From Flavobacteriales bacterium (lineage in GTDB: Bacteria; Bacteroidota; Bacteroidia; Flavobacteriales_E; Vicingaceae): a DNA stretch of 64,000 bases. Below, in pieces: positions 49,654-62,421 of the stretch. Position numbers and translations under genes: made by a program. The notes under the pieces were generated by a model. The model made no database searches. It was given only the letters and a program-made list of their open reading frames with translations, and was not told the origin of the DNA. Each line of letters opens with the position of its first letter. Within the stretch, counting starts at the first letter, position 1. The DNA lies in assembly GCA_013359255.1 (NCBI GenBank), contig JABWCF010000014.1, positions 1-64,000 on the forward strand. Direction: 5' to 3'.

Positions 49654-51375
49654 ATGAAAACGAAATCATTATCTTCTTGCATTGCATTATCTTTTTTTCT
49701 ATTGGTTTTTATGGGTAATGTATTTTCTCAAACCTGTATGCCATGCAAAATGCCTTTCCCTTGGCAGTATGCCGATGCTATTATTATTGACAATTCAGCA
49801 AACCCAGTTACCTTAACCGATTATCAGGTTTTATTAACCTATAATACACAGGCTCCAATTGGGGCAGGAAAAATGAATGCAAATGGTGATGATATTCGTT
49901 TTACTTCTAATTGTTCCGATACAGTTTATTATTGGATTGAAAGTGGTATCAATACACCAACTACTCAGATATGGGTTAGAGTTCCGTTAATAAATGCTAA
50001 TAGTATAGATACGCTTTTATTATATTATGGAAATCCGAATGCAACCGCATTTTCTAATGGGGATAGCACCTTTATGTTTTTTGATGATTTTTCTTTACCC
50101 AATTTAAACTTATCTAAGTGGCAAGTGCAAGGAAATCCAACTTATAGCATTAATTCAGGAATTTTAACCTTTAGCGGAAATAGTAACTGGGAATATATCA
50201 GAAGCACAAAAGTATTTAACCAAAAGGTTGTAGTTGAGGAAAATCATGCAAACGGAGGGGTTTCTACGGGGCTTGTATTAGGATATATAGGAACACACCA
50301 AAGGTATTCTTTTAGAGCAAATGGATTAAACCTAAGTACCACTTACGATAATGACATTATAGGAGGAAACGCTTTTTTTAGTACGGGTTATCCGGCTGTT
50401 CCAGCTTCAAATAATCAGAATTTGTTTTATAAATACAAGGTAGTTAGCTCTATTAATTCAAATACCATAACAGTCGATTCCTATTGTAATGTAACAACAA
50501 GTAATTGTGATAATGCAGTAACCGCACTGAGTACATATACAGGAAGTTCGTTCTACGTGGGGTTTACATCTTATAACCCATCTTATACCGGATATTTAGA
50601 CTGGATTAGGGTGAGAAAATTTTCTGCAATAGAACCAGCCGCTACACAAGGCAGCACCTTTCTTGCCTTACCTGTTGTTAATTTAGGTAATGATACAACT
50701 GTTTGTGGAGAATTATTATTAGATGCCGGCCCAGGATTTACTACATACACATGGAGCCCCTCAGGGAATAATCAGGTTTTAATCGTTAATGCCACAGGAA
50801 CCTATTCTGTGGTTGTAACAGAAAATACCGGATGCAAAGGAACAGACACAATTAATATTATAGTAAATCCATTGCCCAATGCAGGAATTATTGCACCCTC
50901 ATCGTATTGCACCACTTCACCCTCCGATACGCTCGGTGCAATAACTCCAGGAGGCACATGGTCCGGCACAGGCATTATTGATAATATAAATGGTGTTTTT
51001 GACCCAGCTACAGCAGGTTTGGGTACACATACCATTTATTATTCTGTAACAGATATTAATAATTGTAGCAATACAGATAGTGTAGAAATTGATGTAATTA
51101 TTTGTACAGGAATAACAGAGAATAACATGGGTCGTTTACTCTCTGTTTATCCGAATCCAAGTAATGGCATTATTAATATATCTTTTACTGAAAACATAAA
51201 CAACACGATATTGATTCAATTATTTGATGTTACCGGAAAGGAAGTTTACAACAAGAGTGTTCTTAAGAATACAAAAATTTTAGAGTTAGATTTTTCCCAA
51301 ATTCAAAAGGGTTTGTATTCATTAAGAATCACTACTGCTGAGTTCAGTAAAACGGAAAAAATAAACCTGAAATAA
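49654..51375 (+). CDS. DUF2341 T9SS-secreted surface protein
   Basis: This 573-aa protein has a signal peptide (about 1-25). A DUF2341 domain (about 38-135, with YADAIIIDNS and LLYYGNPNA) is followed by a LamG-like lectin fold (about 150-325) and an Ig-like segment with GNDTTVCG (about 350-455). A T9SS sorting domain lies at about 495-573 (LSVYPNPSNGIINISF ... GLYSLRI). DUF2341 modules often bind glycans or ligands in secreted proteins. It is cotranscribed with folD only by proximity (20 nt). A strong terminator follows. Confidence 0.87.
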   Translation: MKTKSLSSCIALSFFLLVFMGNVFSQTCMPCKMPFPWQYADAIIIDNSANPVTLTDYQVLLTYNTQAPIGAGKMNANGDDIRFTSNCSDTVYYWIESGINTPTTQIWVRVPLINANSIDTLLLYYGNPNATAFSNGDSTFMFFDDFSLPNLNLSKWQVQGNPTYSINSGILTFSGNSNWEYIRSTKVFNQKVVVEENHANGGVSTGLVLGYIGTHQRYSFRANGLNLSTTYDNDIIGGNAFFSTGYPAVPASNNQNLFYKYKVVSSINSNTITVDSYCNVTTSNCDNAVTALSTYTGSSFYVGFTSYNPSYTGYLDWIRVRKFSAIEPAATQGSTFLALPVVNLGNDTTVCGELLLDAGPGFTTYTWSPSGNNQVLIVNATGTYSVVVTENTGCKGTDTINIIVNPLPNAGIIAPSSYCTTSPSDTLGAITPGGTWSGTGIIDNINGVFDPATAGLGTHTIYYSVTDINNCSNTDSVEIDVIICTGITENNMGRLLSVYPNPSNGIINISFTENINNTILIQLFDVTGKEVYNKSVLKNTKILELDFSQIQKGLYSLRITTAEFSKTEKINLK

Positions 51376-51395
51376 AATATATTGTATATTAAATT

Positions 51396-51420
51396 AAAAG
51401 GGCGATATCGCCCTTTTTTT
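51396..51420 (+). terminator. rho-independent terminator after the DUF2341 gene
   Basis: Perfect stem 51396-51406 paired with 51407-51417 around a GATATC core, followed by a run of seven T. Confidence 0.85.
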
Positions 51421-51432
51421 AAGATTTTTTTT

Positions 51433-51615
51433 GTGAATAACACCCGGAAAAAAATAATAGACAAATTAGGAAATGAAATTAAAGTTCCTATTGAGGGATC
51501 ATTGAGTTTGCTTGCTTTAGGAGCAGTTGGGTTAAAGGCATGGAGAGAAAAGAAAAAGCAGGAGGGGATAGAGCATTCCTTCAATAACTCTTCCACAAAT
51601 GAAAAAAAAGAATAA
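51433..51615 (+). CDS. conserved-looking 60-aa protein upstream of the phosphodiesterase fusion
   Basis: A GTG at 51433 starts 60 aa beginning NNTRKKIIDKLGNE. An upstream TTG-type frame would run through the terminator and is rejected. One hydrophobic segment (LSLLALGAVGLKAW) suggests membrane association; the tail is charged. Its last codons overlap the start of the phosphodiesterase-TPR-sulfotransferase gene by 17 nt. The tight overlap implies a joint function. I recall similar short proteins in front of such genes, but cannot name a family. Confidence 0.6.
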   Translation: MNNTRKKIIDKLGNEIKVPIEGSLSLLALGAVGLKAWREKKKQEGIEHSFNNSSTNEKKE

Positions 51616-54238
51616 AGTACTACTTGTTGGTTGGGATGCGGCCGACTGGAAGGTGATTACTCCTCTTATGGAAGCCGGAGAAATGCCTGCTTTAAAAAGT
51701 ATGGTAGAACAGGGTGTAATGGCAAATATTGCTACGCTGGAACCGGTTTTTTCGCCCATGCTTTGGACTTCTATTGCTACCGGAAAATATGCCGATAAAC
51801 ATGGAATACTAGGGTTTACCGAACCCGACACCAACACCATTGGAGTAAGACCAGTTTCCGTTACCTCTCGAAAAACAAAAGCTATTTGGAATATTCTATC
51901 TCAGCAAAATTTTAAAACAAATATTATTGGCTGGTGGCCAAGCCACCCGGCCGAACCTGTTAACGGAATTTGCGTCTCTAATTTTTACCAACGTGCTTCT
52001 AAGCCCATAGAAGAGTTTTGGCCTATGCTTCCGGGAACAGTACATCCTAAAGAACTTACTTCTGTTTTTAAAGAATTACGACTACATCCGGCTGAACTTA
52101 CCGAAGCTCATTTAATGCCTTTTATTCCTAATCTCGATAAAATTAATCAGGAAGAAGATAAACGATGGGAAGGAATTATGAAAATTTTAGCCGACACGGC
52201 TACTATACATAATGCTGCCACATGGTCTATGGAAAATTCCGAGTGGGATTTTATGGCTGTATATTTTGATGCCATAGACCATTTTTCGCACTTGTGTATG
52301 AAATTTCATCCACCTCAGTTGCCCGGTATTCCGAACGATTTGTTTTCTATTTACAAAGAGGTTGTAAACAGTTCATACAAGTTCCACGATATGATGTTGG
52401 AACGCCTAATAAAATTGGCAGGAAATGATTGTACTGTTATTCTGCTTTCCGACCATGGTTTTCATTCCGACCATAACCGACCGCTACTTCTTCCAAAGGT
52501 CCCTGCAGCTCCCGCATACGAACATCGCCCCTATGGTGTTTTTTGTGTAAAAGGCCCCGGCATTAAGAAAGATGAGAGGGTTTATGGAATTAATTTGCTA
52601 GATATAGCTCCCACCGTACTCCATCTTTTTAATTTGCCGGTAGGAGAAGATATGGATGGAAAAGTAATTCAACAAATTTTTGAAGAATATATTCCTATAA
52701 AACGTATCCCCAGTTGGGATTTAGTTCAAGGAGCTTCGGGTATGCACCCCGATGGTTTAAAACAAGATCCTCAATCGGCACAGGAAGCCCTTAAACAATT
52801 GGTAGAATTAGGATATATTGAACAACCCGATGAAAATGCTGAAAAAGCAGTAGAACGAACCCTTTTTGAACAAAATGTAAATCTTGCACGTGTTTACATG
52901 GGTTCGGGCCGTTATAAAAAAGCGGTTGAAATATTAGAAAAATTATTCGAAAAAAATAAAGAGATACGAATTGCAACTCGCCTTGCTCGATGCTATTACC
53001 AACTCTACGAAAACCAGAAGGCAGAAGAAGTAATTAAACAAACTCTGCTCCCCGATGAAAAGGAATCAATGGCGTTAAAACTTATAGAAGGGCAGCTCTT
53101 ACTGAGAAAAAATAAGCCAAAAGAAGCGATAAAGCTTTTTAAAGAAATGCAAAAGAAAATCGGGTTTTCTACTCATTTGCTCCAGGAAGTTGGAAGTGGC
53201 TTTTTACTATTAAAAAAGTGGAAAATGGCCGAAAAAATATTTTTACAAATACTTCAAAACGACCCTGATGTAGCTCCGGCATACAATGGGTTGGCGGTTG
53301 CTTATATAGAACAAAAACGATACGAAGAGGCTGCAGAAGCCTCACTCAACGCCATTGGTTTATTTTTCGAATTCCCTATGGCCCATTATCATTTGGGGCT
53401 TGCTCTTTTTCATTTAAACGAATTTGAACATGCAGCAAGGGCATTTGAAGTAGCACTAAAATTTTTACCCAATTTAGCAAAAGCAAGAAACTACTTAATC
53501 GAAATTTATTCTAACCATCTTAAAGATGCCGAAGCTTTGGTTAAAATTCAAGAAGTAAAAGATAGAGTGGATACCGACAGTAACGAAGAATTTTTATTGC
53601 AGCAAAATAGCTTAGACACACAGCACTTAATCGAAAAACATCAGAAAGAAAAAGAAAAATTTTACGAAGGTGAAATAATTATTGTATCAGGCCTTCCGAG
53701 GTCGGGAACAAGTATGCTTATGCAGATGTTACAACAAACGGAACTCGAAATATTTACCGATAATGAAAGACAGGCCGATGAAAACAATCCGAAAGGGTAT
53801 TTAGAACACGAAGCCGTTAAACGTCTTGCACGAGATAAAGCATGGCTCCCTTTGGCCAACGGAAAAGTAGTAAAAATTATTTCGCATTTACTGGTTCATC
53901 TTCCCTCAAGATTCAAGTATAAAATAATTTTTATTCACAGAAACCTAAATGAAATATTATCTTCTCAGCATAAAATGCTTGTTAGAGAAGGAAAAATAAA
54001 AGAAGGTGAGTTTAGAGCCGGACTGCAAATGGCGTACAAAGAAAATCTAAAACGTATAGCTATGTGGGAATCTTCCAACTCAAACGTGGAAATGCTACAC
54101 TTAAAATATGCTGAAATAATAGAAAATACAGAAGTAGAAGCGTTAAAAATAAAAACATTTTTAAAAATAAAAACTGATACAAAGAAAATGGCCGAAGTAG
54201 TTGAAAAAAAATTATATCGAAACAAAAATAATGATTAA
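51599..54238 (+). CDS. phosphodiesterase - TPR - sulfotransferase fusion
   Basis: This 879-aa protein has an N-terminal alkaline-phosphatase-superfamily phosphodiesterase (about 1-370), with metal and nucleophile motifs WDAADWK, FSPMLWTSIATGKYADKHG and LLSDHGFHSD. A TPR array spans about 430-640 and a C-terminal sulfotransferase about 690-879, with a 5'-PSB-like P-loop GLPRSGTSM and a 3'-PB-like FIHRN. The layout suggests hydrolysis of a phosphate ester or nucleotide pyrophosphate and PAPS-dependent sulfation by the same polypeptide, probably cytoplasmic as no signal peptide is seen. Its start overlaps a 60-aa gene. Confidence 0.85.
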   Translation: MKKKNKVLLVGWDAADWKVITPLMEAGEMPALKSMVEQGVMANIATLEPVFSPMLWTSIATGKYADKHGILGFTEPDTNTIGVRPVSVTSRKTKAIWNILSQQNFKTNIIGWWPSHPAEPVNGICVSNFYQRASKPIEEFWPMLPGTVHPKELTSVFKELRLHPAELTEAHLMPFIPNLDKINQEEDKRWEGIMKILADTATIHNAATWSMENSEWDFMAVYFDAIDHFSHLCMKFHPPQLPGIPNDLFSIYKEVVNSSYKFHDMMLERLIKLAGNDCTVILLSDHGFHSDHNRPLLLPKVPAAPAYEHRPYGVFCVKGPGIKKDERVYGINLLDIAPTVLHLFNLPVGEDMDGKVIQQIFEEYIPIKRIPSWDLVQGASGMHPDGLKQDPQSAQEALKQLVELGYIEQPDENAEKAVERTLFEQNVNLARVYMGSGRYKKAVEILEKLFEKNKEIRIATRLARCYYQLYENQKAEEVIKQTLLPDEKESMALKLIEGQLLLRKNKPKEAIKLFKEMQKKIGFSTHLLQEVGSGFLLLKKWKMAEKIFLQILQNDPDVAPAYNGLAVAYIEQKRYEEAAEASLNAIGLFFEFPMAHYHLGLALFHLNEFEHAARAFEVALKFLPNLAKARNYLIEIYSNHLKDAEALVKIQEVKDRVDTDSNEEFLLQQNSLDTQHLIEKHQKEKEKFYEGEIIIVSGLPRSGTSMLMQMLQQTELEIFTDNERQADENNPKGYLEHEAVKRLARDKAWLPLANGKVVKIISHLLVHLPSRFKYKIIFIHRNLNEILSSQHKMLVREGKIKEGEFRAGLQMAYKENLKRIAMWESSNSNVEMLHLKYAEIIENTEVEALKIKTFLKIKTDTKKMAEVVEKKLYRNKNND

Positions 54239-54263: not shown

Positions 54264-55526
54264 ATGAACAATTCTTTACAATCAAAACTAAAAACATATT
54301 CTATTCTGGCAGGTTCTGCTATTGCAGCCACAACCGCTAAGGCAGATATTGTTTACACAGATATTAATGATGTTTCTTTTTCAAACAACGGGCAGTTCTA
54401 CGATTTAGATTTGAATAATGACGGCACCCCCGATTTTAAGTTAGAGATTACAAAAATTAACAACATAATTAGTTCTTATTACTATTCATCATACAGCTTT
54501 TATATAGTTGGAGTAAAATACAATGCGGTAGCTTTGCAGCCCTTAAATACAAACGAAGCAGTAGTTTCAGGTGGATTATACATAGATGCATTAAACCAAA
54601 ATACCCCAATAAATCAAGTTGCCAACTGGAATGCAAATCAAAATAACTTAGGTTATTTTTTATCGTACTACTATTCTAATTATTGGTCTAACAGCAATTC
54701 AGCCACAAGTAACGGCCCATGGAATAATACTCAAAATAAGTACATTGGCTTAAAGTTAAAAGTGAGCGGAAACACTTATTATGGTTGGGTAAGATTAGAT
54801 GTTGCTAATTTGTACGATAACTTTACAGTAAAAGATTATACGTTTCAAGATGCACCCAATATGCCTATTAAAGCAGGTGATCAAGGAAACATTAACGCAG
54901 ATATTGCCATTAACGTAAATGGGATAGATATAGCCAACAACGGAGATGCCAGCGACATGCAAGTGTCGTTTACCAAAGCGGCTGATGAAACAAAAATATC
55001 ATCATATCGCTTAATGATTGTGAAGGCTTCGCAGGCAGGAACATTTGGAATAAACGATGCAAAAAATATTTTACCAGTTTCATACATGGTACACCCCCCC
55101 AATGGAAGTAATTTCCAGGCAAACTTAGCAAGTAATTTTACCGATACCGATGGAGACCCAATTATACAAAATGTAGTATACAAGGTTTTTGTTCTTAGTG
55201 TTCCGGACGGAATAAATGCTACCGCGTATCAGCTAAGTTCACAACAAGGCACCGTAACGCTTACTATTCCTCAAGGAATAGATGAAACGAAACTCTTAGG
55301 ACTACATATTTATTCTTCCGGCAAAACAATTTTTATAGAAAATACAGGTAAAGAACTTAATGGCAAGCATGCAGATATTATCAATATACAAGGACAAATA
55401 GTAGAAACGATACTTTTACAATCGGGTTTAAATAGTGGTGATTTTTCACAATTAAGCAATGGTATCTATTGGATTAAGGTAAGAGGCATAAATGCACAGG
55501 CAACAAAGGTGTTTTTAAACGAATAG
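54264..55526 (+). CDS. T9SS surface protein, tandem paralogue A
   Basis: This 420-aa protein has an N-terminal signal (about 1-27, ending TAKA). An Asp-rich DLDLNNDGTPDF block (about 47-58) resembles a calcium-binding loop and leads into a beta-rich region. A C-terminal T9SS-like sorting domain lies at about 345-420 (SGLNSGDFSQLSNGIYWIKV). The next gene is a paralogue with matching N-terminal and middle regions. Function unknown; surface display by T9SS inferred. Starts 25 nt after the phosphodiesterase fusion. Confidence 0.8.
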   Translation: MNNSLQSKLKTYSILAGSAIAATTAKADIVYTDINDVSFSNNGQFYDLDLNNDGTPDFKLEITKINNIISSYYYSSYSFYIVGVKYNAVALQPLNTNEAVVSGGLYIDALNQNTPINQVANWNANQNNLGYFLSYYYSNYWSNSNSATSNGPWNNTQNKYIGLKLKVSGNTYYGWVRLDVANLYDNFTVKDYTFQDAPNMPIKAGDQGNINADIAINVNGIDIANNGDASDMQVSFTKAADETKISSYRLMIVKASQAGTFGINDAKNILPVSYMVHPPNGSNFQANLASNFTDTDGDPIIQNVVYKVFVLSVPDGINATAYQLSSQQGTVTLTIPQGIDETKLLGLHIYSSGKTIFIENTGKELNGKHADIINIQGQIVETILLQSGLNSGDFSQLSNGIYWIKVRGINAQATKVFLNE

Positions 55527-55600: not shown

Positions 55601-56854
55601 ATGAATATGAAGTTATCAAACCATCTTAAAGCCTATTCTGCATTAGCCGGAGCAGTTTTAACATCAAATTCAGCCAGTGCTGATATCGTTTATACAGATA
55701 TTAATGATGTTACTTTTGCAAACAACGGTCAGTTTTATGATTTGGATTTGAATAATGATGGTACACCAGATTTTCAGTTTACGATTTCAAAATCACAATT
55801 TGGCGGGACCTATACCACATACTATGGCGGAACCTCTAGTTACAATATACTTCTTAACAATATTAAAGTGCAGGCACTGAACAATAATGAAGTTATGATA
55901 TCGCAAGGATACTATAGTAATTTCGTAAAAGCTCTACCGTTAAATACACCCATTAATCAACTGGAAGTTTTTGTCAATGGAACAAATGCGATGGGTACAT
56001 TCTACTCATTTATGTTTAGTAATTCCTCGTTTGTCGGCTCTATCGGCTCTTGGGGTGCAAAAACAAATCATTATGCCGGGCTAAAACTGAATGTTAGCGG
56101 AAAAATATACTATGGTTGGGTAAGGTTAGATGTAGCTGCACAGTATAATAGTTTCACTGTAAAAGATTATGCATATCAAGATTGTGCCGGTCTTACCATT
56201 AAAGCAGGCGACCCGGGTAATGTTGCTGCCGATATAGCCATCAATGTAAATGCTTCTGATGTAGCCGACATAGGTAGTGCCAGTGATATGCAAATTAGCT
56301 TTACTAAAGCAGCCAATGAATCTACTATTTCAGAATACCGTGTTATGATTGTAAAAGCGGCACAAGCCGGAACCTTTACCATAAATACTGCAAAAAACAT
56401 TAGTTTTTCGAATTATATTGCTCACACACCTAATGGAAGTAATTTTCTTTTCAATCCTGCTTCAAACCAAAAAGATGTTGACGGAGATCCGATACAACAA
56501 AATGTACCCTATAAAATTTTTGTACTAAGTATGCCAAACGGAAACACCTCTACCTCTTTGGCAATGGCTCAGCAAGTAGGTACAACCACTTTAACTATGG
56601 GTGGTACTTCAGTTAAGGATTTAGATAGCAAAGGTTGGAATGTTTTTGCTTCTGATAAGAAAATGGTAATAGAATGTAATTTAGCAGATATGCAAAATAC
56701 AGAGTGGTTTCTTTATAATAATACAGGCCAACAAGTAATTTCTTCTAAAATGGAAATGGGTATTCAAACAATAGATTTACAAAATTACCCTGCCGGTATT
56801 TATTACTTTAAAACGAACGAAAATGTTCCTGCCATAAAGCTCCTAATTCAATAA
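55601..56854 (+). CDS. T9SS surface protein, tandem paralogue B
   Basis: This 417-aa protein is a paralogue of the preceding gene. It shares the IVYTDINDV segment after the signal peptide, the LDLNNDGTPDF calcium-like loop, GWVRLDVA, and the block ADIAINVNAxDVA. The C-terminal region ends in a T9SS-like domain (GIQTIDLQNYPAGIYYFKTN). The central insert (about 65-145) differs most between the two. An alternative ATG two codons downstream (55607) exists. Likely a recent tandem duplication. Confidence 0.8.
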   Translation: MNMKLSNHLKAYSALAGAVLTSNSASADIVYTDINDVTFANNGQFYDLDLNNDGTPDFQFTISKSQFGGTYTTYYGGTSSYNILLNNIKVQALNNNEVMISQGYYSNFVKALPLNTPINQLEVFVNGTNAMGTFYSFMFSNSSFVGSIGSWGAKTNHYAGLKLNVSGKIYYGWVRLDVAAQYNSFTVKDYAYQDCAGLTIKAGDPGNVAADIAINVNASDVADIGSASDMQISFTKAANESTISEYRVMIVKAAQAGTFTINTAKNISFSNYIAHTPNGSNFLFNPASNQKDVDGDPIQQNVPYKIFVLSMPNGNTSTSLAMAQQVGTTTLTMGGTSVKDLDSKGWNVFASDKKMVIECNLADMQNTEWFLYNNTGQQVISSKMEMGIQTIDLQNYPAGIYYFKTNENVPAIKLLIQ

Positions 56855-58298: not shown

Positions 58299-61200
58299 CT
58301 ATTCGGTTTTTATAAGTTTAAAACGATAACTTTTTCCGACTTTATTTTTTACATCTAATAAATAAATCCCTCCTAAAATATTTTCGAAGTTTTCTTGCAT
58401 TGCAATATGATTTGTGCCGGCTACACAGCGATATGAGCTAATCCAAAGAATTTTGCCGGTAACATCTTTCAAAAAGAGTTCGATAGTAGTTTCTACAGAA
58501 GAGTTCAGGATTAAAAATACTTCATTAATAAAAGGATTAGGAAATATGCGTAAAGAATCTTTGGCGTTATTTTGGCCCACAGATAGTGGATAGTTTACAT
58601 TAATATAATCTGTTTTCAACAAATCTTTATTGGGGCAAACTCCGTTATTTGCGGTTAATTGAACGGTATACAATCCTGCTTGAGCATATTGGTGCCAGGG
58701 GTTTTTATCTGTAGAAGTGTTGCCATCACCAAAGTCCCAGTACCACGTACTTGCATTTTGTGTAGTGTTGTTAAAAACGGCAATGGCCGATGGTAGATAA
58801 AGAGTTGTGTCAATGGCATTAAATGAAACTTGCGGAGCATGAATTACATTAATAGAAAAGATTTGCACAAGAGTGTCATTTCCTCCGGGGCCGTAAGCAA
58901 TTAATTCAACAGCATAATTGCCGCTTTGAGTGTACAGAACACTCGGATTCGTGGCAGTACTGGTTAGGGGGTTTCCTCCCTGAAAATTCCACAGATAATT
59001 TGTGGCATATAAAGAGTTGTTATAGAAAATTATCGGATCTCCTTCGCAAACTTGTACGGTAGATGTTGAAAAATTAGCCATTGGAGGAAGAGTAGGTTGT
59101 ATAACGGTTTGGCCATTGCTACTGTTTAATACAGAAATTAAACCGGCTCCATTAACAGCTTTCACATTGTAGTAATAGGTTTGATTATAATTTAATGTTA
59201 GGCCGGTATCTGTGGTGCTGGTAAAGTTCCAATTATATTTCCATGCTACAATATCGCTATCTCCGGGGCTTGTTCCTACAGAGTAATAGTAGCTGCTTAT
59301 TCCGGAGTGCGTATCAAAAGAAGTGTTCCAATTTGCTGAAAGTTCATTGGTTACATAAGTAGTGTCTATGTCGTTTCCTATGCCATCATTAACAACAACA
59401 ATAGAAGGAGATGTCCAATCTACATTTACATCAATAAATGCAATGTTCGATAAGTTACTTGCACTGTCGGCAACAATAGATTTAATAAGGCCGGCAGGAG
59501 TGCTTGGATTAGGGTTTTGATATCGTAAATCATTCGTGTTTCCGGCTCCAACAGTTACCATAACATTAGGATATCTGGAACGATACACTTTTAAATTGTT
59601 TACGCTGTACTTACAGTTTCCGCTTCTGAATGAAATCTGATTTCCGGTAGTGTGAGGGTTAGGATCTGTCCAGTTGGCACTAAGCGTGTTATTGATGTAC
59701 ATGGATATCTTTCCTGTTATCCGGTCAAAAATTACTTTGAAATCGTACCATTGGTTTGGGTTAAAGGTGTAGGGAACGTCAAGAACCATAGAAAAAACAT
59801 CATTTACTACTTTATAAAATTGCAATTTATTGTCGTCTGCTCTAAACCAAACGAAGTAGGAATTACCACGATTGGTAAGCGATGCATTATCGCAAAAAAA
59901 GTGAAATCCGGCTCTTCGATTTGTTCCAGCTCCTTCAATTTTTCCCGCCCAATGATATAAATAGCGGTTCGAAAGTATTTGATTTAAGGAGGCAAAAATA
60001 TTTGTATTTCCGTTTCCTTCATCGCTCTGCATTAAGTGGCTGTTTTGAATACTCCAGTTACCTGAAACAGTGCTCCAGTCAGGGTGTATGTTTAAATCAA
60101 AATTGTCGCTAAAAAAACCGCGGGTTTCGTTGGCCCTCCATTCTGTTCCGTTAAATTCAAGTATCTGATAGTAGCTTTTTTCGAGTCCGCTTCCTCCAAT
60201 ATTATCTTGGTCTGTAAAAGCAACATTAAAATCTTGTGTAACCCAATTTGGAGTTGTGTTAATGCTGGTAGTGGGAGGAACACTATCTTGTTGTTGTTGA
60301 TTAAGATTGCTTGTCCAGGTAGCAGCCCACCCTGAAGCTGTAGTAGCACAGTCGGATCTGAATTCTACCAACAATGAATTTCCTGTTGAAGTGACTGTAC
60401 CCGGAGAGTTTGTTCCTGTGTATTTACCAATAAGAGGGGCAGAAAGGGTATTGCCATCGTAAATTCTCAAATAATCCCAGTTGGTTTCTAAGTTAAACTG
60501 ACTAAACGAGAGAGTAACAGAGTTGACACCGTTAGGGTGTATCAAATATAACTTTCTTTCATCGTTGCTGTAGTTTCCGTTGGGGCCTCCGCTATCGTAA
60601 AACGAGCCGGAGTTATTAGTGTAATTGGTTACACTCGGATTGTTATTAATCAACTGGTAATATTTTTCCCAATCCCAATATATGCCAGGGTCTGTGTGGT
60701 TTTGATTAGGGTAGTGCTGATGTCCTTTTATTCGAATACAACTTCCAAGTAAATTCAATCCTGAAGTGGCTGGCCCCTGAAAGGTTCTCAGCGGATTTAT
60801 TCCATAATTTTTATTGCAGATATGCTTTGTTAAATCAGCCGATGCATTATACATAAAATTTGTGTACCACCCGGGCTGATTCACATACCCTTCATGTTCG
60901 TAACCAATGGTGTATGGGTTTTCGGAACCCACATGCCATGCTTTATTTGATTCTAAAACCATTTGTGTAATTTGCCCGTCAATAGACCTTATTACGTAGT
61001 GGTACGAAACATTAGAGTTGCAGTTTTTTGCCCAACTGATTGCCCCGGCATAGCTTCCCTGAATGGTATGAATGGTAATGGCCGAAATAGCTATTCCATT
61101 TCTTGAGCTGTAGTTGCAACTTGGTGCAGGGTCCCAAATGGCCGATGGATAATCAGGAGAAATTTTGTCTTTTGAAACTTTGTATTTTTCTCCTTTTTCG

Positions 61201-61838
61201 TCCGTGATATTATCTTCTGTAATCAATATTTTCTCCGACTGGAAAAGAGAAAAATTTTCGCCAAAAATCTTTTTATAATCTATTGAGTATTCAGGAAATC
61301 CGTACTCTTTAGCACAGATAGGATTAGTTAAAAACCAGTAAATAGCGTAAAGATAAGAGTCCATTGCAAAATTTTTATGTAAATCGCCCATAGGAAGCTC
61401 CGATAATTGCCTTAAAATTTCAAAGTTGCTTTCTAATCCATTATTTTTTAGTTTGCTTTTTAGAATCGAAAAAGCTTTGGCGTACGCCAACAAAGATATT
61501 TCCGGATTATCTAATATAGATGTTTCCGAGATGCCGGAAAGAGAAGAAATATAAGTTAAATTATTCCGAAAATAGTTTTTCCCATCTAAAGTTAATCCCA
61601 TTAAAGTATAAGCCTTTGGCATATCTAAACAGCTTGAAGGTTGGTTTCCGGTAAAATGAACGAAACGAGTTTGGGTATATGAAACGGCCTCTAATAATCC
61701 TTTAGGAATATCAGGATATACTTTGTATGCACTTTCAAAAAATAAGGAATAATTGTTTTTAGGGTATAATTCGAAATTAATGCTAAATCCGTAAAAAGCT
61801 GAATAAATAAAAAAAATAAGTAGCAGAAAGCGTTTCAT
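58299..61838 (-). CDS. large T9SS amidase with CUB, PKD and lytic-transglycosylase-like N-domain
   Basis: The ATG at 61838 gives about 1179 aa. An N-terminal SLT-like helical domain (about 25-180, GLLEAVSYTQTRF with a candidate catalytic Glu) is followed by an Amidase_2 domain (about 240-400, ITIHTIQG, AWHVG, GHQHYP). A CUB-like domain comes next (about 400-500, SGGPNGNYSNDE), then LamG-like and beta-sandwich modules (about 545-900). Two PKD domains (about 905-1065, WDFGDGN) and a C-terminal T9SS sorting domain (about 1095-1179, IFPNPFINEVF) complete it. The CUB-PKD modules suit adhesion. It would cut peptidoglycan amide bonds, probably of other bacteria, from the cell surface or medium. Confidence 0.85.
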   Translation of the reverse strand: MKRFLLLIFFIYSAFYGFSINFELYPKNNYSLFFESAYKVYPDIPKGLLEAVSYTQTRFVHFTGNQPSSCLDMPKAYTLMGLTLDGKNYFRNNLTYISSLSGISETSILDNPEISLLAYAKAFSILKSKLKNNGLESNFEILRQLSELPMGDLHKNFAMDSYLYAIYWFLTNPICAKEYGFPEYSIDYKKIFGENFSLFQSEKILITEDNITDEKGEKYKVSKDKISPDYPSAIWDPAPSCNYSSRNGIAISAITIHTIQGSYAGAISWAKNCNSNVSYHYVIRSIDGQITQMVLESNKAWHVGSENPYTIGYEHEGYVNQPGWYTNFMYNASADLTKHICNKNYGINPLRTFQGPATSGLNLLGSCIRIKGHQHYPNQNHTDPGIYWDWEKYYQLINNNPSVTNYTNNSGSFYDSGGPNGNYSNDERKLYLIHPNGVNSVTLSFSQFNLETNWDYLRIYDGNTLSAPLIGKYTGTNSPGTVTSTGNSLLVEFRSDCATTASGWAATWTSNLNQQQQDSVPPTTSINTTPNWVTQDFNVAFTDQDNIGGSGLEKSYYQILEFNGTEWRANETRGFFSDNFDLNIHPDWSTVSGNWSIQNSHLMQSDEGNGNTNIFASLNQILSNRYLYHWAGKIEGAGTNRRAGFHFFCDNASLTNRGNSYFVWFRADDNKLQFYKVVNDVFSMVLDVPYTFNPNQWYDFKVIFDRITGKISMYINNTLSANWTDPNPHTTGNQISFRSGNCKYSVNNLKVYRSRYPNVMVTVGAGNTNDLRYQNPNPSTPAGLIKSIVADSASNLSNIAFIDVNVDWTSPSIVVVNDGIGNDIDTTYVTNELSANWNTSFDTHSGISSYYYSVGTSPGDSDIVAWKYNWNFTSTTDTGLTLNYNQTYYYNVKAVNGAGLISVLNSSNGQTVIQPTLPPMANFSTSTVQVCEGDPIIFYNNSLYATNYLWNFQGGNPLTSTATNPSVLYTQSGNYAVELIAYGPGGNDTLVQIFSINVIHAPQVSFNAIDTTLYLPSAIAVFNNTTQNASTWYWDFGDGNTSTDKNPWHQYAQAGLYTVQLTANNGVCPNKDLLKTDYINVNYPLSVGQNNAKDSLRIFPNPFINEVFLILNSSVETTIELFLKDVTGKILWISSYRCVAGTNHIAMQENFENILGGIYLLDVKNKVGKSYRFKLIKTE

Positions 61839-61851
61839 AAAAAGTAAATTT

Positions 61852-62421
61852 TTAAAATCCAATAGCTATACCCATTCTTATATCTGGGTTAGGCATCTGA
61901 AAAGAGTATTTGCTAATGTAATTTGTATCGTCAAGCACATTGAATAATATTAACAACATAAAGTAAGAATGGTCTCCTATGTTTTGTCTAATGCCTCCTC
62001 CAATTAAAAGTCTTGGATAATTCACTCGTTCAACCCTCCGATCTAAATTGTTATATAAATCCATGTTTAATATTTCATACTCCGTATGTAGCAAAAAACT
62101 GTTTAAAATTTTTTGCCTGGCAAATACCCTTCCTCCGAAAATATTGGTGCTGTAATTATAATACCGGTTACTAAAATACATATAAGTAATACCCAAACCG
62201 GCAGAAAAGGATTCTGTAATGTTGTAGCCCGCATTAGGCGATAAATCAATTAATGTTACATTTCCAAACATTAAACCAAAATTGCCGCCCACAAATGTTT
62301 TTTCCCAAAATGAAGACTTATACTTTTCTTTCGGTTTTCCCTTAGTGTTATCCTCTACATATTGAGAAAATCCATAAGAAACAAAACTCATTAACATCAA
62401 GAAAATAATAATTTTTCTCAC
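61852..62421 (-). CDS. outer-membrane beta-barrel protein (hypothetical)
   Basis: This 189-aa protein has a signal peptide (about 1-19, ending GFSQ), then barrel-like strands with aromatic ends and a terminal IRMGIAIGF. A TKGKPKEKYKSSFWEKTFVGGN segment near residue 25 precedes the barrel. The start is a GTG (62421), with an upstream stop in frame. It lies 13 nt before the large amidase gene and is probably cotranscribed. Function unknown. Confidence 0.7.
   Translation of the reverse strand: MRKIIIFLMLMSFVSYGFSQYVEDNTKGKPKEKYKSSFWEKTFVGGNFGLMFGNVTLIDLSPNAGYNITESFSAGLGITYMYFSNRYYNYSTNIFGGRVFARQKILNSFLLHTEYEILNMDLYNNLDRRVERVNYPRLLIGGGIRQNIGDHSYFMLLILFNVLDDTNYISKYSFQMPNPDIRMGIAIGF

Follow-up and report, generated by a model that had tools for sequence, protein, structure and literature searches.

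What is acted upon by a polypeptide in which a metal-dependent phosphodiesterase (PDE) is joined through a TPR array to a sulfotransferase (ST) of PAPS type, and what part is played by the 60-aa gene that overlaps its start? The locus lies in a 64,000-nt stretch of DNA from a Flavobacteriales bacterium, referred to here as the window, and its features are collected in Table 1. The domain combination and the 17-nt overlap had both been described in an earlier note on this DNA, and both are borne out: the three domains match Pfam families over their cut-offs, the architecture recurs in other genomes, and the coordinates of the overlap are exact. The best clues to function are two features absent from that note, the leader proteins encoded next door and the PEP-CTERM likeness of the 60-aa protein.

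Table 1. Features of the enzyme locus (window coordinates).
Feature	Position	Strand	Basis or remark
60-aa partner gene	51433..51615	+	GTG start; conserved directly upstream of the enzyme
Core GSLSLLALGAVGLKAWREKK of the 60-aa protein, free-standing PEP-CTERM-like segment	about 51496-51555	+	Profile match
17-nt overlap of the 60-aa gene and the enzyme gene	51599..51615	+	Open reading frames
879-aa PDE-TPR-sulfotransferase	51599..54238	+	ATG start; Pfam domains, 20-member alignment
Phosphodiesterase (alkaline phosphatase superfamily) domain, residues 7-365	51617..52693	+	Pfam, alignment
TPR array, residues about 424-655	52868..53563	+	Pfam, fold search
Sulfotransferase domain, residues 690-876	53666..54226	+	Pfam, alignment, profile against PDB
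Exported protein, KLKxYSxLAGS leader; C-terminal T9SS-type sorting domain scoring just under cut-off	54264..55526	+	
Second tandem leader protein, HLKAYSALAGA; T9SS sorting domain	55601..56854	+	

A TTG at 51382 offers the small gene an alternative start that would give 77 aa; the 60-aa form is favoured because the same frame in a 95%-identical genus-mate (G001) permits a GTG start only. In most homologous loci the small gene and the enzyme overlap by 4-17 nt. A perfect inverted repeat, AAAAGGGCGATATCGCCCTTTT, followed by T's, occupies 51396-51420 between the gene of a DUF2341/T9SS protein (49654-51375) and the 60-aa gene, and is also found in G001; this terminator-like repeat suggests that the 60-aa gene and the enzyme are transcribed separately as a pair. 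Further along the window, 58299-61862 on the minus strand encodes a 1187-aa protein of amidase-CUB-PKD type, whose T9SS tail is weak.

The N-terminal part of the enzyme is matched by Phosphodiest (PF01663) at residues 7-289 (3e-26, 93.3 bits against a cut-off of 23), followed by TPR repeats at residues about 424-640 and by Sulfotransfer_1 at residues 694-872 (7e-9), the latter two over their gathering cut-offs. In an alignment of 20 full-length homologues, the PDE residues D13, S52, D227, H231, D285, H286 and H309 are invariant, so that the two-metal ligands (D, D-H, D-H, H) and the Ser/Thr nucleophile are all present; S52 occupies the nucleophile position, where phosphonoacetate hydrolase has the Thr of FTNP in the alignment. 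The 5'-phosphosulfate loop SGLPRSGTS (697-705) and the Arg-x7-Ser of the 3'-phosphate site (R781...S789) of the ST domain are likewise invariant, and the profile of this domain matches PAPS sulfotransferases (SULTs) in the PDB at 4.7e-7 and TPSTs more weakly. The earlier note had named missing catalytic residues as one finding that would overturn it, and key positions of both domains are intact. From these domains and conserved residues, the predicted activities are hydrolysis, of a phosphodiester or phosphonate, and sulfation. The further proposal that the PDE hydrolyses the PAP by-product finds no support, as the domain belongs to the NPP/alkaline phosphatase superfamily; PAP removal is normally the task of a 3'-phosphatase of another fold. 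The structure model of the full protein, which had been suggested as a check, was poor: the predicted structures of the whole enzyme and of a leader protein were of low confidence (mean pLDDT 65 and 62), and a fold search with the enzyme model returned TPR proteins only, which is uninformative on the PDE or the ST. The enzyme begins right at the first strand of the PDE domain and therefore carries no signal peptide. Its dN/dS against G001 is 0.09; the small-gene value of 0.42 rests on 12 changes and was not used.

Full-length proteins of this architecture are spread across Bacteroidota, at 44-57% identity, and are found in Acidobacteriota at about 40%; the fusion is therefore not a chance event. 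Independent evidence that PDE-TPR and ST work together comes from two loci (L038, L040) in which PDE-TPR and the ST are encoded side by side by two overlapping genes. The enzyme is split in a Desulfobacterium MAG. Among 151 relatives of one Bryobacteraceae genome in the Acidobacteriota, 26 have enzyme matches, some of them partial, with up to four copies per genome. Four relatives of G503 (G630, G520, G510 and G511) carry free-standing ST genes of ~200 aa that match the C-terminal domain of the enzyme. Neither the enzyme nor the small protein nor the leader protein has a match among the PADLOC anti-phage families. The window's own genome encodes an APS kinase (7.9e-68); of the 17 system genomes tested, 16 have one, the exception being an 84%-complete genome (G063) in which it was not found; as APS kinase is equally common in control genomes, this shows PAPS availability only. 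Such a supply, together with a weak similarity of the PDE to phosphonoacetate hydrolase, would suit a soluble enzyme of nucleotide or sulfur metabolism to which the leader proteins are genomic hitchhikers. We consider this unlikely, since the patchy distribution (18 of 120 relatives, and 2 of 392 genomes drawn across the phylum, one being the window's own) and the tight coupling to exported proteins are unlike core metabolism.

In 21 distinct Bacteroidota loci, one of them an N-terminal fusion, the small gene immediately precedes the enzyme (the 21 include G175, which was used for no model). Of the intact Bacteroidota loci examined, only one, of T9SS type (L038), lacks it, and its presence, like the fusion, goes beyond chance. 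Lack of conservation, the other finding named beforehand as fatal, is thus not what was observed. A profile search of 120 genomes placed the small protein in 18, the enzyme in 18 and both in 17; in the genomes with only one of the pair (G035, G039), contig ends intervene. G074 has an in-frame fusion of the small protein to the N-terminal phosphodiesterase of the enzyme, which may be a frameshift artefact because the region is A-rich. The earlier description of a 60-aa membrane-associated gene therefore holds as to a conserved gene, but membrane association is weakly supported: the hydropathy over 17 residues is 0.8-1.9, borderline for a membrane helix, and several small proteins have H, E or K within the hydrophobic segment.

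A 60-aa gene adjoining a sulfotransferase recalls RaxX, a 60-residue precursor that is sulfated on tyrosine by RaxST in Xanthomonas (PMC6637879), and the conserved core would also suit a product of this kind. By comparison, tyrosine is absent from the window's 60-aa protein and from 10 of 17 homologues, so a conserved acceptor is lacking; furthermore, the protein has no export leader, its core resembles a PEP-CTERM tail, and it can be fused to the enzyme, as in G074. That the 60-aa protein is itself the sulfated product is accordingly very improbable.

The core of the small proteins, with the consensus GSLGLLALGxVGLxAWRxKR, consists of a glycine-rich hydrophobic stretch followed by a basic patch, as in PEP-CTERM segments. 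In a profile-profile comparison, the small proteins match the PEP-CTERM tails of enzyme-linked Acidobacteriota proteins with 96.9% probability and a score of 47.4, against best scores of 17.5 for 200 other hydrophobic-plus-basic segment sets (drawn from a pool of only 30) and 17.7 for 200 column shuffles. By definition the 60-aa protein is not a PEP-CTERM protein, because it has lost the PEP motif (VPIEG in the window; VHKDG, VSEKG, ISAAG and others in homologues), is not the C-terminus of an exported protein and scores 12.8 bits with PF07589, under the gathering cut-off of 20.7. The window's protein continues for about 19 residues beyond AWREKK, and most members have a hydrophilic stretch after the core. 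As judged from these comparisons, the core is a free-standing PEP-CTERM-like tail.

Such a core raises the question of whether the small protein is a sorting substrate cleaved by an exosortase, with the enzyme as an accessory of a Bacteroidota exosortase. An exosortase-family gene is indeed present in 18 of 20 system genomes by TIGR04178; it was not found by this model in the complete genome G091 or in the incomplete G035. Exosortase genes are common outside the system genomes too, the PEP motif is unconserved, and most small proteins run on past the basic patch, all of which makes an exosortase substrate improbable. The converse, a system independent of exosortase, was considered and dropped, as PF09721 had missed the exosortase of G074 that the sensitive TIGR04178 found; exosortase is left as undetected in G091 and G035.

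In Acidobacteriota, whole PEP-CTERM proteins adjoin the enzyme, and their tails align with the 60-aa protein. In 5 of 20 loci (L163, L166, L167, L175 and L180, the last ending at a contig edge with its leader start out of view), the gene just before the enzyme on its strand encodes a PEP-CTERM protein with a leader-like start; one of these genes overlaps the enzyme by 4 nt. PEP-CTERM proteins lie nearby in four more loci. A linked PEP-CTERM/leader protein thus occurs at only about half of these loci, in counts that cover enzyme loci alone.

The two exported proteins downstream of the enzyme in the window belong to one family, which is found beside the enzyme in most loci. TIGR04183 (Por_Secre_tail) scores 27.1 bits for 55601-56854 and 21.5 for 54264-55526, against a cut-off of 23. 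Their leader follows the pattern K[LI]xxY[SA]xxAxA, also written KLxxYSxxAGA, in which the tyrosine is invariant. A leader-only model at E<=1e-3 matches, among 120 relatives, exactly the 19 genomes that have the enzyme and/or the small gene and none of the 101 others, where the best value is 0.006 (Fisher p 1.7e-22, shared ancestry ignored; the model was built from system genomes, and tree neighbours are non-independent). Ordinary signal peptides take the place of the leader in family members from non-system genomes and in a few from system genomes. The leader also occurs alongside the enzyme in L036-L040, whose sequences contributed to the model. The leader profile (A4) shows no similarity to the small-protein profile (A2).

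One genome, G175, has the enzyme and the small gene beside a neighbour without a recognisable leader. In this neighbour (L132, G175:C44, -1359..-157 of the enzyme) and in an Acidobacteriota protein (L167, 745-1491), the N-terminus is longer and has a Y[SC]-containing motif ahead of the hydrophobic signal segment, with several residues between. These two cases suggest, and no more, that the tyrosine motif of the leader may be separable from the signal peptide.

The enzyme, the small gene and the leader proteins are linked, and across 23 loci the small gene and the leader proteins are the only widely conserved neighbours. Sulfotransferase and phosphodiesterase domains often act on glycans and lipids, and the unit could accordingly make or edit a glycan or lipid of the cell surface, such as a sulfated or phosphorylated polysaccharide, with the leader and PEP-CTERM proteins as co-regulated binding cargo rather than substrates. 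PEP-CTERM/exosortase systems have been linked to exopolysaccharide loci (PMC1569441), which also fits. However, no conserved glycan-synthesis gene stands out among the neighbour clusters of the 23 loci; moreover, such a role leaves unexplained why the leader is restricted to enzyme-bearing genomes. We regard the glycan or lipid role as doubtful, if the most serious of the alternatives.

The reading we prefer, with a probability of roughly 0.45, is that a cytoplasmic or membrane-tethered unit modifies leader-bearing surface proteins, probably by sulfation, before their export. We infer a physical complex, its substrate, its chemistry and an order of steps from sequence. The 60-aa protein and the PDE-TPR-sulfotransferase would form one functional unit in the cytoplasm, and the PEP-CTERM-like small protein would probably hold this unit at the inner membrane or dock it, as anchor or adaptor; its N-terminal fusion and its PEP-CTERM likeness fit both roles. 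The targets would be a dedicated class of exported surface proteins with the KLxxYSxxAGA leader, encoded alongside and elsewhere in the same genomes. The leader, which within the sample of 120 occurs in system genomes only, is the likeliest recognition mark. The TPR array is the likeliest reader and would bind either the leader-bearing preprotein or a helix of the small protein. Modification most likely falls to the ST domain, which would move sulfate from PAPS onto the protein or onto something carried by it, and the PDE domain, whose role is the least certain, may act on a phosphoester, by cleavage or transfer, as part of this maturation. PAPS is cytoplasmic and the enzyme has no signal peptide, and action before export is therefore likeliest. 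Export would follow through Sec and T9SS in Bacteroidota, or through Sec and PEP-CTERM/exosortase in Acidobacteriota.

As in PEP-CTERM/exosortase sorting (EpsH/XrtA; described in 2006, PMC1569441), the 60-aa core has a glycine-rich hydrophobic stretch and a basic patch, TPR proteins are associated with the system, and the enzyme-linked Acidobacteriota proteins are true PEP-CTERM proteins. By contrast, the Bacteroidota segment is a separate gene, without the PEP motif and away from the C-terminus of an exported protein, the exported partners there have T9SS-type tails, and PDE-TPR-ST lies outside the described system. TPR-sulfotransferase proteins of the Sulfotransfer_3 family share the TPR array and a PAPS-type P-loop sulfotransferase, whereas the present enzyme has an additional N-terminal phosphodiesterase, a 60-aa partner and a short ST domain of about 187 aa. 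Phosphonoacetate hydrolase and NPP-type phosphodiesterases of the alkaline phosphatase superfamily have the fold family and the metal and nucleophile residues in common with it; here, the nucleophile position is a Ser, there is no export signal and the domain is fused to TPR-ST. Each domain and PEP-CTERM sorting are known already; a search of the open-access literature turned up no description of the enzyme in combination with leader-marked T9SS cargo and a detached PEP-CTERM-like partner. The earlier remark that no characterised pathway has such a combination agrees with this search.

In its broadest form, the preferred reading becomes an undescribed maturation system of several phyla, in which a tyrosine-containing leader marks surface proteins that a cytoplasmic PDE-TPR-sulfotransferase modifies, and in which, in Bacteroidota, the PEP-CTERM tail has become detached from the cargo as a separate cofactor of 60 aa, through which the enzyme is coupled to the membrane or to the cargo; in this form it is a tentative proposal. 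If true, the export of bacterial surface proteins would gain a modification step of its own, probably sulfation. PDE-TPR-sulfotransferase fusions would have a first functional lead, PEP-CTERM tails would be tied to T9SS cargo, and the leader motif would allow substrates to be listed and tested directly.

The number of leader matches per genome varies: two members of the same family (f32), G076 and G116, have 31 and 12, often clustered, and the other system genomes have 1-7.
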